Assembly: GCF_003851125.1 (NCBI RefSeq)
Contig: NZ_BGOW01000021.1
Coordinates: forward strand, 1-64,000
Source: Sulfuriferula multivorans
GTDB lineage: Bacteria; Pseudomonadota; Gammaproteobacteria; Burkholderiales; Sulfuriferulaceae
Direction: 5' to 3'
DNA: 64,000 nt
Of the stretch, positions 33,904 to 46,838 are shown piece by piece. The notes beneath the pieces are model-generated. The model was given only the letters and a program-made list of their open reading frames with translations, made no database searches and was not told the origin of the DNA. The position numbers and the translations under genes are program-made. Numbering within the stretch: position 1 is the first letter of the stretch; every line of letters begins with the position of its first letter.

Positions 33904-34016
33904 AAGTTTTCCTTTAGGGTTAAGCCTCCAGCCGTCGCCCAACACCCCGCATGGGGCACCCTAAGCTATTGACGACTGTGCGAATTTTGATGCGCACCAT
34001 GCACACCAAGGGCGTA

Positions 34017-34058: not shown

Positions 34059-35843
34059 TTAACTGAAGGCATGGAATTGCAGTGCCGCAAGATTGGCATA
34101 TACGCCACCCAGCGCAATCAGCGACGCATGCGTACCAACCTCCACAATTTCGCCATTTTCCATCACGATAATCCGGTCGGCACGTTGCACTGTCGCCAGG
34201 CGGTGCGCAATGATGAGGGTGGTACGGCCAATCAATGCCGCCTCCAGCGCGCTTTGCACCAGACGCTCGGATTCGGCATCCAGCGCACTGGTCGCCTCGT
34301 CCAGCAACAATAGCGGCGGATTTTTGAGCAACGCGCGGGCGATGGCGATACGCTGGCGCTGCCCGCCCGACAGGCGTACGCCACGCTCACCCAGGAAGGA
34401 TTGATATCCTTGCGGAAGTTTCTCGATGAATTCATGCGCTGCAGCCATTTTGGCGGCAGCAATCACTTCGGCATCGCTGGCTTCGATGCGGCCATAACGA
34501 ATATTCTCCAGCGCATTGGCAGAAAAAATTACCGTATCCTGCGGCACAATGCCGATGGCTGCGCGCAAGTCATGCAAATCGAGCTGCCTGATGTCCACGC
34601 CATCCAGAGTGATCAATCCTTGTTGTGGATCATAAAAACGCAGCAACAACTGAAACAGCGTGGTCTTGCCCGCGCCGGACGGGCCGACAACCGCCACGGT
34701 CTCGCCCGGCTGGATAACAAGCGACAAGTGACTCAAGGATGCAGTGAGTGGCCGCGAGGGGTAGTGGAAAGTGACCTCCTGCAGCACCAGTGCAGCGCCG
34801 TTGTGAGAGCGCGGCGGCAATTTCTGCGGCAGCGTAGGAGGCTGGATCGGCGAATGCACTGCCATTAATTCCAGCAATCGTTCGGTCGCACCTGCCGCTC
34901 GCTGCGCTTCGCCCAGCACCTCCGAGAGAGCCCCAATGGCACCCGCCACGATCGCAGCATAGAGGATAAACTGCCCCAGTTCTCCGCCGCTCATCTGGCC
35001 GTCGATCACCGCGTGCGCACCCAGCCACAGCACGAACACGATTGCACCAAACACCAGCAAGATCGCCAGCAAAGTCAGCATGGCGCGCGCACGAATGCGC
35101 CGCATCGCAGTGTTGAAAGCATTTTCAACCAAGCTGCTGAAGCGACTGGATTCCATTGCCTCATGAGTGAATGCCTGTACCGTTGGCATCGCGTTGAGAA
35201 TTTCGCCTGCCATCGCTGACGCATCGGCAATGCGGTCTTGCGAGTCGCGCGACAGCTTGCGCACACGCCGGCCAAAAATAACGATCGGCAGCACCACAAC
35301 AGCCAGCAGCACAATAATGATGGACGACAGCTTGACGCTGGTAACGAACAGCATCGACAGACCACCGACGAAAAGCAAGGCGTTGCGCAGGGCCATGGAA
35401 ATGCTGGTGCCGACCACTGCCTGAATCAGCGTGGTATCAGTGGTCAGACGTGACAATACCTCGCCACTCTGCGTCGTTTCAAAAAACTGCGGGCTTTGAC
35501 TTACGACGTGCCTGTATACCGCACTGCGGATATCGGCAGTCACGCGTTCACCCAACCACGACACCATGTAAAAACGCGCTGCCGTGGCCACGGCGAGAAT
35601 GCAGGCCACACCGAACAGTGCGAGGAAATAGGTATTCACATGCTGGATGCTTTTTGCGCCGGCTGCTCCAAAGCCGAGATCTATCATCTGCTTGAACGCA
35701 TACGGAATGGCAAGTGTGGCACCGGCTGCAACCACCAGTGCAATACCGGCCACGAGAAATTCCCGTTTATAGGGGGCCAAAAATGGCAACAGGCCCTTGA
35801 GGGTAGCCAGACTGCTTTTTGGAGTTGATCGGGTAAGGGGCAT
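34059..35843 (-). CDS. MsbA-like ABC exporter (fused permease and ATPase)
   Basis: The 594-residue half-transporter has six membrane helices in residues about 20-320 and a C-terminal nucleotide-binding domain. The latter has Walker A GPSGAGKTTLFQLL, the Q-loop, signature LSGGQRQRIAIARAL, Walker B LLLLDEATSALD and the switch His in IIAHRLATV. The layout is that of MsbA/ABCB exporters of lipids or drugs. True MsbA and this subfamily cannot be separated by eye, so the substrate is open. It lies upstream of rpsB on the same strand and diverges from the bactofilin gene. Confidence 0.88.
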   Translation of the reverse strand: MPLTRSTPKSSLATLKGLLPFLAPYKREFLVAGIALVVAAGATLAIPYAFKQMIDLGFGAAGAKSIQHVNTYFLALFGVACILAVATAARFYMVSWLGERVTADIRSAVYRHVVSQSPQFFETTQSGEVLSRLTTDTTLIQAVVGTSISMALRNALLFVGGLSMLFVTSVKLSSIIIVLLAVVVLPIVIFGRRVRKLSRDSQDRIADASAMAGEILNAMPTVQAFTHEAMESSRFSSLVENAFNTAMRRIRARAMLTLLAILLVFGAIVFVLWLGAHAVIDGQMSGGELGQFILYAAIVAGAIGALSEVLGEAQRAAGATERLLELMAVHSPIQPPTLPQKLPPRSHNGAALVLQEVTFHYPSRPLTASLSHLSLVIQPGETVAVVGPSGAGKTTLFQLLLRFYDPQQGLITLDGVDIRQLDLHDLRAAIGIVPQDTVIFSANALENIRYGRIEASDAEVIAAAKMAAAHEFIEKLPQGYQSFLGERGVRLSGGQRQRIAIARALLKNPPLLLLDEATSALDAESERLVQSALEAALIGRTTLIIAHRLATVQRADRIIVMENGEIVEVGTHASLIALGGVYANLAALQFHAFS

Positions 35844-35880
35844 AGGGATTATTCAAGACTCAATCGAAAACATCACACTT

Positions 35881-35898
35881 CGTCGCCGGTTAGCGACA
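35881..35898. promoter_or_regulatory. Predicted GlrR-type enhancer dyad (distal) of the bactofilin gene
   Basis: GTCGC-CGGTTA-GCGAC (35882-35897) is a perfect dyad and matches the published enterobacterial GlrR site TGTC-N10-GACA except for the first base (CGTC-N10-GACA). Its centre is about 185 bases upstream of the predicted sigma-54 start at 36075. It also lies 38 bases before the divergent ABC-exporter gene. Confidence 0.55.
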
Positions 35899-35956
35899 CG
35901 CAAAAAACAGGCATCGCCTTGATTTATTTAATACTAATAAAAACATCAGAATTTAC

Positions 35957-35974
35957 CGTCGCTCTGCAGCGACA
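35957..35974. promoter_or_regulatory. Predicted GlrR-type enhancer dyad (proximal) of the bactofilin gene
   Basis: GTCGC-TCTGCA-GCGAC (35958-35973) is a second perfect copy of the same dyad, again CGTC-N10-GACA, centred about 110 bases upstream of the predicted transcription start. The two copies are 76 bases apart. A pair of upstream dyads at these distances is the usual arrangement for sigma-54 activators. Confidence 0.55.
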
Positions 35975-36048
35975 AAATTCATCATTCTGACAATGTTCAA
36001 TCTCTTTATTTTAAGCTATCTGACTGTTTATTATAAATATTTCATAAA

Positions 36049-36064
36049 TGGCGCATATTTTGCT
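36049..36064 (+). promoter_or_regulatory. Sigma-54 promoter of the bactofilin gene
   Basis: TGGCGCATATTTTGCT fits the sigma-54 consensus TGGCACG-N4-TTGCW, with GG and GC separated by exactly ten bases. The predicted start is near 36075, leaving a leader of about 67 bases before the ATG at 36142. The surrounding DNA is AT-rich, with no better sigma-70 promoter. Confidence 0.65.
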
Positions 36065-36141
36065 AACGGACTCAAATCTACGGCGGCATTTTTACCGTGG
36101 TCACTTTCCGCGACTCAATTCCTTCGAGAGGACGATCCATT

Positions 36142-36744
36142 ATGCTAAAGAATTTCATGCAGCCAACCCATGCCAAGCCCACTCACCACAGCATGAATAA
36201 TTCCTTATTGGATACGCCAAAATCATTGGATAATACGCCCAAACCACTCGAAACTTCTGCGAGCGCAAAACCTGCATCGCATGAAGAAGGTAACAAGCTC
36301 ATCGTAGGGCCCAACATCAAGCTGAAAGGTTCAGAAATCACCGATTGTGAAATTCTGGTTGTGGAAGGCCGCGTGGAAGCCTCCATGAATAGCCGCGATA
36401 TCCGCATCGCCGAAGGCGGCGTTTTTTCCGGCACTGCAGAGATCGACGTCGCCGAAGTACGTGGTCATTTTGAAGGTGAACTCACCGCCCGCAAACGGCT
36501 GGTAATTTATGCTACCGGGAAAGTTACCGGTCACATTCGCTATGGTGCGCTGAAGATTGAGGAAGGTGGTGTTCTCTCGGGAGATGTGGCAACACTCTCA
36601 ACGCCACAGGCCAGCCTGGTTAAAGTACCGGAAATTACTATCGAGGAAAAACCGGAAGCGCATCAGGAAAACGTTTCCAGCCCAACTCAAACATACCCGG
36701 CTTCGGTGCTCGCCAAAAACTCGGCGGGCCGCCGCCAGGGTTAA
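36142..36744 (+). CDS. Bactofilin (polymer-forming cytoskeletal protein)
   Basis: Bactofilins self-assemble into filaments that localise cell-wall enzymes or chromosome factors. The 200-residue protein has a flexible, His/Pro/Thr-rich N-terminus (about 1-60), then the beta-helical bactofilin domain. That domain begins NKLIVGPNIKLKGSEITDCE and includes VEGRVEASMNSRDIRIAEGG, the VRGHFEGELTARKRLVIYAT repeats and YGALKIEEGGVLSGDV. A short variable tail follows. I use the ATG at 36142 after AGAGG; the open frame begins at 36097. The upstream sigma-54 promoter and enhancer dyads suggest GlrR control. It is monocistronic by position. Confidence 0.93.
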   Translation: MLKNFMQPTHAKPTHHSMNNSLLDTPKSLDNTPKPLETSASAKPASHEEGNKLIVGPNIKLKGSEITDCEILVVEGRVEASMNSRDIRIAEGGVFSGTAEIDVAEVRGHFEGELTARKRLVIYATGKVTGHIRYGALKIEEGGVLSGDVATLSTPQASLVKVPEITIEEKPEAHQENVSSPTQTYPASVLAKNSAGRRQG

Positions 36745-41784: not shown

Positions 41785-42054
41785 CTAACCGCGCACACTG
41801 AGATTATTTACAACGTAGGAAACACCCTGTACCTCTGTTGCCAGAACCACAGCCAGCTGTTCCTGTACGGCTTTGCGGACCCATCCGGTCAATTCCACGC
41901 CCCCCGCAAAAGTTTCTACATGGATAAATGCTTGACCCATTGACGGGTGCTGCTTCAACGCAATTTGTATATTGGCTGTGATAATTTCGTCATCAACGGC
42001 CTTCAATACCTGAATTTGCGAATGAAATGACTGTGTGCGGAGCTGCATCTTCAT
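41785..42054 (-). CDS. BON-domain protein
   Basis: The 89-residue protein is essentially a single BON domain: DDEIITANIQIALKQHPSMG, then IHVETFAGGVELTGWVRK and a closing VQGVSYVVNNLSVRG. BON domains occur in periplasmic OsmY-like proteins and bind membranes or phospholipids. No signal peptide is obvious, so the compartment is uncertain. It is closely related to the BON half of the protein at 42158-42676 (shared IHVETF...GAVQLSG and VNNL patterns), suggesting local duplication. Confidence 0.82.
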   Translation of the reverse strand: MKMQLRTQSFHSQIQVLKAVDDEIITANIQIALKQHPSMGQAFIHVETFAGGVELTGWVRKAVQEQLAVVLATEVQGVSYVVNNLSVRG

Positions 42055-42157
42055 GAATTGATATCCTCAAGCTATTAAACAAAATCCGGTCCAAGCCGCA
42101 TAACATCGCAGACATTTGTGCGCAACTTTGAACACGGTTGACCTAAACAGGCGCTGC

Positions 42158-42676
42158 CTAATCATTATTTTTTGGAATCAAATTGTTGATGACTTTCGTA
42201 ACTCCCTCTACGCCGGCAGTGATTTTTCCAGCCGCTGCAACTTGCTTGTCACTGTCAATAAACCCGCTCAGCTGTACCGCCCCTTTGTAGGTCTCGACAT
42301 GTATCTGCGAGCCTTTCAAGAGTGAATGTTTGAAGAGACCAGCTTTCACTTTCGCAGTGATCACGCTGTCATCCACATATTTCGCTACCTGGACGCGCTC
42401 ATTTATTGACTCTGCTTTGACAAACTCGCTTTTGTTCAATTTTCCGTCGCCATTGGTATCCGCCTCTTCAAATGCCTTGCTGGACATTTTGTGTTCAGCA
42501 GCTTCCTCCTTGCTGATCAAACCATCCCGATTGGTATCATATTTTTTGAATGTGGAATCTCCGGGCCGGGACAGTGGTGTCCCGTGGGATGCGGTGGCAA
42601 CCCCAAAGGTAAGAGCCATTCCAACCAGGAAGCTTAAGCAGGGTCTCTTTTTAAAAGTGAATGTGGGGTATTCCAT
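42158..42676 (-). CDS. Secreted EF-hand plus BON-domain protein
   Basis: The 172-residue precursor has a signal-peptide-like N-terminus (residues 12-33) and two canonical EF-hand loops, DTNRDGLISKEE (47-58) and DTNGDGKLNKSE (73-84). A C-terminal BON domain follows (about 98-168, with DDSVITAKVKAGLF and IHVETYKGAVQLSGF). Strong GGAGG precedes the ATG. The layout suggests a periplasmic calcium-responsive protein that binds the membrane through BON. It shares its EF-hand section with the protein at 42865-43200. Confidence 0.88.
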   Translation of the reverse strand: MEYPTFTFKKRPCLSFLVGMALTFGVATASHGTPLSRPGDSTFKKYDTNRDGLISKEEAAEHKMSSKAFEEADTNGDGKLNKSEFVKAESINERVQVAKYVDDSVITAKVKAGLFKHSLLKGSQIHVETYKGAVQLSGFIDSDKQVAAAGKITAGVEGVTKVINNLIPKNND

Positions 42677-42864
42677 GAATTGCCTCCTGATTTGTTCCTC
42701 ACCACGGGTTTAGCTGATCGACCATTCCGGATAAGCAACAATCCAAACTTTCTGCCGCCCTAAAGAAAAACGAAGCAAAACCCAAGCAACTCAATCGCTC
42801 CCAACCAGAGCTAATCATTCAAGTCGACTTCGGGTGTACCTCGCAGTAACGCTATTTATTTTAT

Positions 42865-43200
42865 TTAGTACTTCGGAGTTCCTGGTGATGGCACGGTTGG
42901 TGCATCGGCCGGCGGTACACTTGCTGTCGCCATTGCATTGGCCAACTCGTCGGGACTCAATTTTCCATCGTGGTTGGCATCAGCCTCTTTGAATACTTGA
43001 GCAGGCATGCCCTGTGCCGAGGCTTCCTTAGGATTGACGAAACTGTCATGGTTTGTGTCAAACAGCGACATGGCTGGAGAAACTTCAGTTTTGCTGGCTG
43101 GGGCAGCATGGCTAACAGCCATTCCGGAAACCACCAATGCGGTTCCCAATACAAATGCCTGGATTGCCTTATTTTGCAAATTTAAAGCTCGGTAACTCAT
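42865..43200 (-). CDS. Secreted EF-hand protein
   Basis: The 111-residue precursor has a signal peptide (FVLGTALVVSGMAVSHAAPA, about 16-35), two EF-hand loops, DTNHDSFVNPKE (48-59) and DANHDGKLSPDE (74-85), and a Pro/Ala-rich tail. The first loop has Ser at the usual Gly position. I start at 43200, where AAGGAG lies seven bases upstream, rather than at 43251. A sigma-54 promoter at 43247-43262 and two GlrR-type dyads lie upstream, so it is probably the first gene of a GlrR-controlled cluster. Confidence 0.88.
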   Translation of the reverse strand: MSYRALNLQNKAIQAFVLGTALVVSGMAVSHAAPASKTEVSPAMSLFDTNHDSFVNPKEASAQGMPAQVFKEADANHDGKLSPDELANAMATASVPPADAPTVPSPGTPKY

Positions 43201-43246
43201 CTGTAGCTCCTTAAGTACGCAGCAATATTGCTGTGTACAAAGAGTG

Positions 43247-43262
43247 AGCAATTGTTATGCCA
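43247..43262 (-). promoter_or_regulatory. Sigma-54 promoter of the EF-hand/BON cluster
   Basis: On the minus strand TGGCATAACAATTGCT has GG and GC separated by exactly ten bases, matching TGGCACG-N4-TTGCW at nearly every conserved position. The predicted start is near 43236, 36 bases before the ATG at 43200. Confidence 0.7.
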
Positions 43263-43324
43263 TACTGAATTATCGATTAATAACAGTGCGTTACTGATAA
43301 AAAAAGGGGTGTGGAACAGGTTTG

Positions 43325-43342
43325 TGTCGCCTTCCGGCAACA
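43325..43342. promoter_or_regulatory. Predicted GlrR-type enhancer dyad (proximal) of the EF-hand cluster
   Basis: GTCGC-CTTCCG-GCAAC (43326-43341) differs by one base from the dyads in front of the bactofilin gene and reads TGTC-N10-AACA. It is centred about 98 bases upstream of the predicted sigma-54 start. Confidence 0.5.
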
Positions 43343-43392
43343 TGGATATGGCTACGGCATGCTAACTTATTGAAAAATATTGGAATACATCT

Positions 43393-43410
43393 TGTCGCCG
43401 AACGGTGACG
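43393..43410. promoter_or_regulatory. Predicted GlrR-type enhancer dyad (distal) of the EF-hand cluster
   Basis: GTCGC-CGAACG-GTGAC (43394-43409) reads TGTC-N10-GACG, one base from the GlrR consensus. It is centred about 166 bases upstream of the predicted start and 12 bases after the glrR stop codon. Confidence 0.5.
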
Positions 43411-43421
43411 GGGAAAAGGAT

Positions 43422-44773
<1,352 letters not shown>

Positions 44774-44777
<4 letters not shown>

Positions 44778-45337
44778 GGTTTTGTAGTAATTCCGCGCCT
44801 ATCCCGGCGGATAAGGTTCTTTTCCATATTTTTGATGCCATCCACTTGCCCTTGCAATGCATCGGCACGTTTCTGCTCATCCTTCAGTTTTTGCGACAGA
44901 TCATCTGCATTATTATTGGCACGCTGCTGTTCTGCGATCATCATCGCCATCATGTTTGCCAGACCACGTAAGCTTGGCGATGGCGCTTTGGTTTCTTTGC
45001 TCACCTCATTGAGTAAACCAAGCGCGGCTGCCGTATCGTGGAAAGGCGTATTAGGCATCGATAGAAGCAATGCAACCCGCACACGATTTACATCCGTTTT
45101 GGATTGCGTCAAAGCCTGCCGCGCTTTGTCGTATTCTTTAATCAGTTCCGGCGCTGGCTGTTTACGCAAAAAATCGTAATACAGCATCAACTCTTCCACC
45201 TGGCTGGTCACGAGCAAGGAAGGCGACCACCCCGTAGCTGGAAGATGCGAAGAACTTGTCGGCAAGTTTGTACATGCTGCAAGAGACGTCAACATAATAA
45301 CCGGCAAAATCCAGAATCGTTGCAGAATGTCAGACAT
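44774..45337 (-). CDS. qseG: QseG/YfhG-like outer-membrane lipoprotein
   Basis: The 187-residue precursor has a lipoprotein signal (LPVIMLTSLAAC, lipobox cysteine near residue 22) and a mostly helical mature part with RVRVALLLSMPNTPFHDTAAAL. A C-terminal coiled coil follows (AEQQRANNNADDLSQKLKDE). The position between kinase and regulator matches QseG, which in enterobacteria interacts with the GlrK sensor domain and is needed for its activity. I start at 45337, overlapping the glrK end by eight bases; the frame opens at 45385. Confidence 0.85.
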
Positions 45338-46838
45338 GCGCGTCTTCCGAATTACAGATAGGCAACAACAAACGAAAACGAGCACCAGCGCCAGCTTGTT
45401 TCAAAAGCTCAATCTCCCCACCATGCGCACGCGCATATTCACGGGCAATGGATAAGCCAAGGCCGGTTCCCTGGACGTGCATATCAGGCGCCTTGCGCCC
45501 TTGATAAAAAGGCTCGAATACCCTGGCATGGTCAGCTTCCTCAACGCCCGGTCCCGAATCCGCAACTTCCAGCCAAACAGACTCGCGAACCCGCCTCACA
45601 TTGATTTTAATATGCCCTCCTGGAGGAGAAAACTTCACCGCATTCGACACGAGATTATCCACAATAATGCCAATTTTTTGCTGGTCACACTCAACCGTCA
45701 GGTCAGAGCATGTCAGTTCGACTTGCAGGTTTTTGTTCATGATTGCGAGTTTTTGATCCTGCAACACATCCTCTACAATTTTTTTCAACGCCGCCGGGCA
45801 TTTTACAAGCCCGTTTTGTCCATTTTGAAGTGCGCTGTAATTAAGCAAATCCTCGATGCGTTTTTGCAATTGTATACTGTTGGTGTACAGAATATTTGCG
45901 ATCTGACGCTGCTTCACGCTCAACTCGCCAGCCACCCCTTCCACCAGCAAATCGGCACCCTCGCGCATGGCTGTGAGCGGTGTCTTGAGTTCATGCGAAA
46001 CATGTCGCAGAAAGCGGGTCTTCTGCTCTTCCACTTCCAGCAGGCGCCGGCGCATCCAGTCCAGCCTTTGCCCAAGGTACCTCAAATCCTGCGGGCCTTC
46101 CACGCTCACTGCTTTGGTAAGTTCGCCCTCTCCCATGGTCCTGATGGCGGCATCGATCTGTCGAATCGGACGTGCAATCAATACCGAAAAACCGAGCGCC
46201 AGCAGGATAGCAAACGGGACCAGCGCGAGCAGTTGCCATACCACAATCGATCGTGCATGCCAGGCCATGTCCTGCATTGCGGTCACTTCGCGCTCAATCA
46301 ACGCATAACCACTAGACGAGAAAGCGCGTGCCGTATCCAGCAAGGGCACAAAATCACTGACGATTTCCTGCAAACCCTGTGATGATCGGCGCGCCGAAGA
46401 TACCTGCTGAAAAATGGCTGATTCAGAAGCTGTGAGTCTGTCCAGCACCTGTTTCTGGTCCGGGCGTAAAGACAATGCAGAGAGACTCATTGCCGTACTC
46501 GCGAATTTCGCGTGTGCCTGAAAATAACCCTCCAGCAAGGATGCATCGCCGAGGATCAGCGTTTGCCGCACACTACGTTCCATGGTGGAGATTTCATCCA
46601 GCAGAACGCGGCTGCCATGCGCGATCTGCGCTGCCTGGTAAACCGCTTTGCGGCTCTGCTCGGCCAGTTTATCAATAGATAAAGCGCTATTGATGAGGGC
46701 GATGATAAGCGGCAGCGCCACCAGAACAAATCCGATGAGAATCAGTTTCAGGAAGGACTTTGGATTATGCCGCAGCAATCCTTTGGAAACGGGCGCGGAT
46801 TCATCCTCCAATTCAACGAGCGGCGTGCCTGCTTTCAT
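45330..46838 (-). CDS. glrK: Sensor histidine kinase GlrK (QseE)
   Basis: The 502-residue kinase has two membrane helices (about 30-51 and 200-222) flanking a helical periplasmic domain of about 150 residues, then a HAMP linker and the dimerisation domain with phosphoacceptor His282 (FLRHVSHELKTPLTAM). The ATPase domain has the N box (IIVDNLVSNAVKFSPPGG) and the glycine-rich boxes VADSGPGVE and GTGLGLSIARE. It is the first gene of the glrK-qseG-glrR operon. In other bacteria the system responds to envelope conditions. Confidence 0.92.
   Translation of the reverse strand: MKAGTPLVELEDESAPVSKGLLRHNPKSFLKLILIGFVLVALPLIIALINSALSIDKLAEQSRKAVYQAAQIAHGSRVLLDEISTMERSVRQTLILGDASLLEGYFQAHAKFASTAMSLSALSLRPDQKQVLDRLTASESAIFQQVSSARRSSQGLQEIVSDFVPLLDTARAFSSSGYALIEREVTAMQDMAWHARSIVVWQLLALVPFAILLALGFSVLIARPIRQIDAAIRTMGEGELTKAVSVEGPQDLRYLGQRLDWMRRRLLEVEEQKTRFLRHVSHELKTPLTAMREGADLLVEGVAGELSVKQRQIANILYTNSIQLQKRIEDLLNYSALQNGQNGLVKCPAALKKIVEDVLQDQKLAIMNKNLQVELTCSDLTVECDQQKIGIIVDNLVSNAVKFSPPGGHIKINVRRVRESVWLEVADSGPGVEEADHARVFEPFYQGRKAPDMHVQGTGLGLSIAREYARAHGGEIELLKQAGAGARFRLLLPICNSEDAHV

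Follow-up and report, generated by a model that had tools for sequence, protein, structure and literature searches.

Known targets of the regulator GlrR are glmY, glmZ and rpoE. Bactofilins are self-assembling proteins of the cell scaffold; to our knowledge, little has been established about the switches of these widespread genes. In the available part of PMC6075780, glmY and rpoE of Escherichia coli are described as targets of GlrR/QseF, three GlrR/QseF sites are reported at glmY, the consensus is given as TGTN12ACA, and IHF assists QseF at glmY. According to the same part of that source, GlrR/QseF also controls the sigma-54 (P2) promoter of E. coli rpoE, which has similar sites upstream and serves a protein-coding gene of envelope function; it differs from the present case in that the target is a sigma factor, and we liken the two by their description. 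The PEP-CTERM/PrsK-PrsR system, as covered in the accessible sections of PMC1569441, has a comparable layout, an activator motif followed by a −24/−12 promoter at envelope-related proteobacterial genes, but its motif ends in TTTACA and is not a GTCGC-N6-GCGAC dyad. Caulobacter BacA and BacB belong to the same Pfam family as the bactofilin studied here. Excerpts of PMC5590869 describe a membrane-associated BacA polymer that recruits PbpC, a wall enzyme, and mention no GlrR-type control of the Caulobacter bactofilins. Clusters of qseEGF genes are reported in Betaproteobacteria (PMC12691602, in part). No tie of sigma-54 to bactofilin expression was found in the available portions of PMC9850573, PMC1569441, PMC6075780, PMC12691602, PMC9218911, PMC5590869 and PMC12288472. 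A literature search joining bactofilin with GlrR or QseF, with most subscription journals outside its coverage, also returned nothing, in line with a preceding sequence-only reading of this DNA, in which such control had been called undescribed.

The studied locus lies in a 64-kb stretch of DNA, further referred to as the window, from a Sulfuriferula genome of 3.62 Mb; its host is a sulfur-oxidising betaproteobacterium. At 35,881–36,744 the window contains, in this order, two dyads, an AT-rich spacer (78% AT), a −24/−12 promoter and the bactofilin gene (Table 1). The dyad cores GTCGCCGGTTAGCGAC (35882–35897) and GTCGCTCTGCAGCGAC (35958–35973) are the only perfect GTCGC-N6-GCGAC dyads of the window, and TGGCGCATATTTTGCT is the sole perfect match to TGGCRCRNNNNTTGCW within it. 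Both dyads agree with the published TGTN12ACA in five of the six fixed bases (CGT instead of TGT), and the −24/−12 promoter stands downstream of them, as at a GlrR/sigma-54 target. Hence, the window scans confirmed the two dyads and the promoter that the sequence-only reading had claimed, and its distances are correct as well: the dyads lie about 110 and 185 bp before the bactofilin transcript start, which is predicted near 36075. The gene behind the promoter indeed encodes a bactofilin (PF04519, 66 bits versus 27.9, E 3.7e-18). An ABC exporter gene (34,059–35,843) diverges from the bactofilin gene, and an Lrp/AsnC-type gene lies downstream. For the spacer scan, WATCAANNNNTTR was used as what we take to be the IHF consensus.

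Table 1. Features of the bactofilin locus, the glrK-qseG-glrR locus and the second predicted target in the window.
Feature	Position	Strand	Basis or remark
UAS1, predicted GlrR-type dyad CGTCGCCGGTTAGCGACA	35881..35898	+	motif scan; pair kept in genus orthologues
UAS2, predicted GlrR-type dyad CGTCGCTCTGCAGCGACA	35957..35974	+	starts 76 bp after UAS1
IHF-like site, 1 mismatch to WATCAANNNNTTR	35998..36010	-	consensus scan; predicted
Second IHF-like site, 1 mismatch	36034..36046	-	consensus scan; predicted
Predicted sigma-54 (−24/−12) promoter TGGCGCATATTTTGCT	36049..36064	+	92 bp after UAS2
Bactofilin gene, 200 aa	36142..36744	+	ATG 36142, stop ends 36744; PF04519
Gene of a BON-domain protein (89 aa), perhaps in one operon with the next two	41785..42054	-	domain search
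Gene of a protein with EF-hand and BON domains (172 aa), perhaps in the same operon	42158..42676	-	domain search
Gene of an EF-hand protein (111 aa), export probable	42865..43200	-	domain search; export read from sequence
Predicted sigma-54 promoter of second target, TGGCATAACAATTGCT	43247..43262	-	motif scan
UAS2 of second target, TGTTGCCGGAAGGCGACA	43325..43342	-	motif scan
UAS1 of second target, CGTCACCGTTCGGCGACA	43393..43410	-	motif scan
glrR	43422..44777	-	receiver, sigma-54 activator domain with GAFTGA, Fis-type HTH
qseG-like gene, small, lipobox-like LAAC	44774..45337	-	flanked by the kinase and regulator genes
Sensor kinase gene, named glrK from its position	45330..46838	-	HAMP, HisKA, HATPase_c

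The closest counterpart is the E. coli glmY promoter, which carries the dyads TGTCGCTTTCTGGCGACA and TGTCTCTTTTTAGCGACA, one site being exactly TGTCGC-N6-GCGACA, upstream of a −24/−12 promoter. Like the bactofilin switch, it has glrK-qseG-glrR genes in its vicinity, which it adjoins, and the spacer studied here contains IHF-like sites, a possible parallel to the assistance by IHF at glmY. The two differ in output, which is an sRNA in E. coli and a cytoskeletal protein here, and in spacing, with dyad–dyad and dyad–promoter distances of 76 and 92 bp here versus 63 and 107 bp at glmY. No Rfam match to a GlmY-like RNA was found in the window between 30000 and 50000.

A single dyad is unspecific. 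In the window, dyads with at most one mismatch are no commoner than in shuffled sequences (5 versus a mean of 3.96), and neither are promoter matches with at most one mismatch (5 versus 6.03). The whole genome contains 8 perfect dyads, fewer than matches to the reversed control pattern (48), and 196 dyads with at most one mismatch. Five of the six other perfect genomic dyads are situated in ORFs of at least 271 aa, and none of the six has a sigma-54 site attached by the scan rule. Given these numbers and the mostly coding location of the perfect copies, a dyad taken singly was rejected as evidence. In contrast, the combination of two dyads and a promoter is specific and not a product of chance. 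By simple arithmetic, the expectation for two of the 8 genomic dyads to lie 76 bp apart is about 0.001, and the scan of the whole 64-kb window yielded only two occurrences of the combination, one at the bactofilin gene and one at an EF-hand gene near glrR. Each motif does occur at chance frequency in the window when one mismatch is allowed, as a fortuitous coincidence of dyads with promoter-like sequence would imply, but the conserved and specific combination contradicts this explanation, and we regard it as practically negligible.

Further targets in the genome were searched with the half-element CGACA-N55-85-TGGYRY-N6-TGC, a pattern that passes over targets with other spacing. It occurs at 44 places versus 13 for the reversed control. 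All 44 places were scanned (30 loci, 11 stretches and 3 places in the window), and by the rule of the whole-window scan a dyad pair was found only at the two elements already known; a looser rule adds one weak site inside coding DNA (L171). Two suggestions of the sequence-only reading are qualified by these results. As a genome-wide signature the dyad fails singly, while the pair with a promoter singles out two of the 44 places; similarly, coding DNA does contain single dyads and almost no full elements, the one match being the weak L171 site obtained with the looser rule.

Bactofilin matches were found in 10 of 18 Sulfuriferula genomes. Nine matches with E values of 8.2e-41 or lower represent close orthologues; the remaining one, in G013 (E 1e-5), belongs to a different bactofilin. 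The dyad pair is present before all nine close orthologues, with the dyads 68–79 bp apart, and in six cases the distance from the start of the second dyad to the promoter is 91–93 bp. In L014, L016 and L017 (genomes G016, G001 and G006, respectively) the sigma-54 promoter precedes a conserved ORF of 39–40 aa, and the dyads follow the promoter, in the interval from this ORF to the bactofilin gene, an order that counts against the proposed arrangement. The short ORF appears hydrophobic by eye; the one copy tested has no Pfam match. GlrR was found in 14 of the 18 genomes, that is, in all nine with a close bactofilin and in five of the nine without it. Nine of these 14 genomes have the complete element downstream of glrR; it is missing in L048–L051, and L052 ends too early.

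A broader set of named relatives was formed by the best 80 of 518 confirmed bactofilin loci. The full element precedes the bactofilin gene in 41 of them (Thiobacillus, Sulfuriferula, Hydrogenophilales and similar). Altogether it occurs 46 times in this set, 41 times at bactofilin and five times at the EF-hand gene beside glrR, and nowhere else in its 2,607,190 bases (both strands counted). L074 retains a single dyad and the promoter at a contig cut, L092 has a rearranged form of the element, and L101 comes without upstream DNA; at the remaining 36 of the 80 loci, including those of Oxalobacteraceae and of the Polaromonas type, no full element was found. In only four of the 41 element-bearing loci does glrR fall within the fetched flank (at most 10 kb, often cut), so the conservation is not due to a common neighbourhood. 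With slightly wider distance limits, 28 of the 30 other glrR loci examined also have the element next to glrR. The genes behind these glrR-adjacent elements include those of EF-hand proteins (L156 and L135, tested against Pfam) and of a BON protein (Herbaspirillum L157, tested), and in Polaromonas (L137–L140) the element is positioned downstream of glrR and before an MdoG-type periplasmic glucan gene (504 bits for L140, the one tested). As far as they are recognised, the genes behind glrR-adjacent elements have envelope functions.

The geometry was studied on 91 different elements, drawn from every fetched locus and including related ones. The distances between the second dyad and the promoter are 79–84 bp (10 elements), 91–95 bp (50), 102–105 bp (20), 111 bp (4) and 121 bp (2), with five outliers, and they step by about one helical turn. 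The mean vector equals 0.81 at a period of 10.5 bp and 0.78 at 10 and 11 bp; calculated on the 20 distinct distance values, it is 0.55. The E. coli distance of 107 bp is off this series. The dyad–dyad distance exhibits no preference for 10.5 bp (0.52 at 10.5 bp and 0.68 at 13 bp, n = 91). Among the 41 elements of the named relatives the variation is smaller: 37 have dyads 77–78 or 88 bp apart, and in 40 the promoter follows the second dyad at 90–93 bp. IHF-like sites with at most one mismatch were found in 46 of the 91 spacers versus 8.3 in shuffles that preserve composition only.

The putative regulator is encoded about 7 kb from bactofilin, on the minus strand, where the kinase, lipoprotein-like and regulator genes follow the order glrK-qseG-glrR. 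Directly behind glrR, a small EF-hand gene in the same orientation is preceded by a second dyad pair with a promoter. The NCBIfam search gave no GlrK model match for the sensor kinase; the QseG-like protein matches no Pfam or NCBIfam model and was therefore named by position. The regulator has a receiver, a sigma-54 activator domain with GAFTGA and a C-terminal HTH. Its best match among 113 NCBIfam models is GlrR (NF011695), with 626 bits, below the equivalog cut-off of 763. Hence, we called it a GlrR orthologue by helix, gene order and sites instead. The C-terminal 10-residue helix of recognition type, which we take to be the one reading DNA, is identical in E. coli GlrR and in the regulator from the window. 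The genome encodes one copy of the sigma-54 gene and 13 strong sigma-54 activators, of which only GlrR has this helix.

The presence of GlrR was tested in 50 genomes of the 80 named-relative loci, with at most 33 candidates scored per genome, a depth at which GlrR could be missed. GlrR (at least 59% identity) was found in 22 of the 23 genomes with the element versus 8 of the 27 without it (Fisher 1.4e-6, ignoring kinship); the 23 genomes are 22 selected by the full-element rule and that of L074. The exception is a metagenome bin (L062/G022), in which the element is present and GlrR was found neither in this scoring nor in the HTH search. These data bear on the possibility that the sigma-54 promoter is real and the dyads are bound by some other enhancer-binding protein, e.g. 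PrsR of the PEP-CTERM system or an NtrC-type paralogue. The bin without detected GlrR and the number of activators encoded here are compatible with it, as is the PEP-CTERM layout, in which the motif is placed about 63 bp before the −24/−12 promoter (PMC1569441, in part). On the other hand, the PEP-CTERM motif given in the same sections is a 17-mer unlike the dyad, the dyads agree with the E. coli GlrR sites, the recognition-type helix occurs in no other activator of this genome, and the element adjoins glrR and tracks its presence. Taken together, this makes binding by another activator highly improbable.

For the order-wide analysis we used a sample of 300 genomes at least 90% complete, of which 61 contained bactofilin and 119 were scored GlrR-positive (five candidates per genome). 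A strict rule identified the element in 14 of the 48 GlrR-positive and none of the 13 GlrR-negative bactofilin genomes. Since the requirement of GC at −12 missed promoters ending in TTGT or TTGA, a relaxed rule was adopted; G110 satisfies the strict rule alone. Under the relaxed rule, the first scoring gave 23 of 48 versus 1 of 13. The HTH recheck of the 13 GlrR-negative genomes revealed a GlrR-type gene in two of them (G265 and G205), and the corrected counts are 24 of 50 genomes with GlrR versus none of 11 without it (Fisher 0.0022, ignoring kinship). The 24 genomes span 12 families, the family of the host included. Counting against the proposed control, 26 of the 50 genomes with both GlrR and bactofilin have no element by the relaxed rule. 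The background of this rule is eight distinct non-bactofilin matches in 7,106 windows of 710 bases: four are at the EF-hand gene (L060, L061, L065, L071), two are bactofilin dyads on the opposite strand (L066, L090), and two are weak and unexplained (L099, L100). An order-wide pattern proved too loose in GC-rich genomes, where control counts were similar, and was dropped. Conservation before bactofilin orthologues, on which the sequence-only reading had staked its claim, is borne out at all three levels, as the dyad pair in the genus, as the full element among the best relatives, and in relaxed form across the families.

In G265 (L328) glrR is split into two frames by a frameshift or an assembly error, and the bactofilin element is present. 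In G205 (L327) the alignment of the GlrR-type gene lacks GAFTGA, and the bactofilin gene has one nearby dyad and no sigma-54 element; this pairing is suggestive, being a single case. It fits the explanation that GlrR binds its dyads and only modulates a bactofilin gene transcribed mainly from a sigma-70 promoter. However, no sigma-70-like site was seen on the plus strand at 35840–36150, and the −24/−12 site holds its fixed distance in all but one of the 41 named-relative elements, so we consider predominant sigma-70 transcription unlikely.

We therefore favour GlrR/sigma-54 control and consider it very probable that bactofilin is among the conserved targets of GlrK-QseG-GlrR; this estimate covers the control itself and excludes physiology. 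The choice of GlrR as the regulator, already made in the sequence-only reading, is supported as a prediction by the nearby glrR, the second element, the glmY sites, the helix and the co-occurrence. Beyond that reading, the analysis adds the EF-hand/BON target, the IHF-like sites, the spacers that step by about a helical turn and the range of taxa. We infer GlrR binding, phosphorylation, IHF use and sigma-54 transcription at bactofilin from sequence, and the switch may operate as follows. An envelope cue would alter the contact between QseG and GlrK, and GlrK would phosphorylate GlrR. GlrR oligomers would then occupy the dyads at 35881–35898 and 35957–35974, IHF would bend the AT-rich stretch behind them, and the GlrR ATPase would open the sigma-54 polymerase waiting at 36049–36064, with the bactofilin mRNA beginning near 36075. 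The EF-hand/BON gene set downstream of glrR would be switched on by the same signal.

The least certain part is the output, which may consist in scaffolding of the wall or envelope machinery under stress; this role is suggested by the regulator, the co-regulated genes and the roles of bactofilins elsewhere. Tentatively, and with slightly more doubt than confidence, we propose that the output of GlrK-QseG-GlrR in betaproteobacteria is mainly structural and not an sRNA, comprising an inducible bactofilin, calcium-binding and BON proteins and, in some lineages, MdoG, so that the state of the outer membrane or the wall would set filament dosage at the membrane. The predicted control would extend the GlrR regulon from enterobacterial glmY and rpoE to a structural output in betaproteobacteria and suggests, in a testable way, that the envelope state is coupled to the bacterial cytoskeleton. 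Given its specificity, the full element permits GlrR targets to be called from sequence, so that the regulon could be predicted in many genomes.

Two minor observations concern other parts of the window. The EF-hand/BON set (41785–43410, minus strand) is weakly similar to the lanmodulin and OsmY models. In front of rpsB, at 33919–34000 on the minus strand, there is an Rfam match to the t44 RNA with 39.5 bits, under the gathering score of 44.
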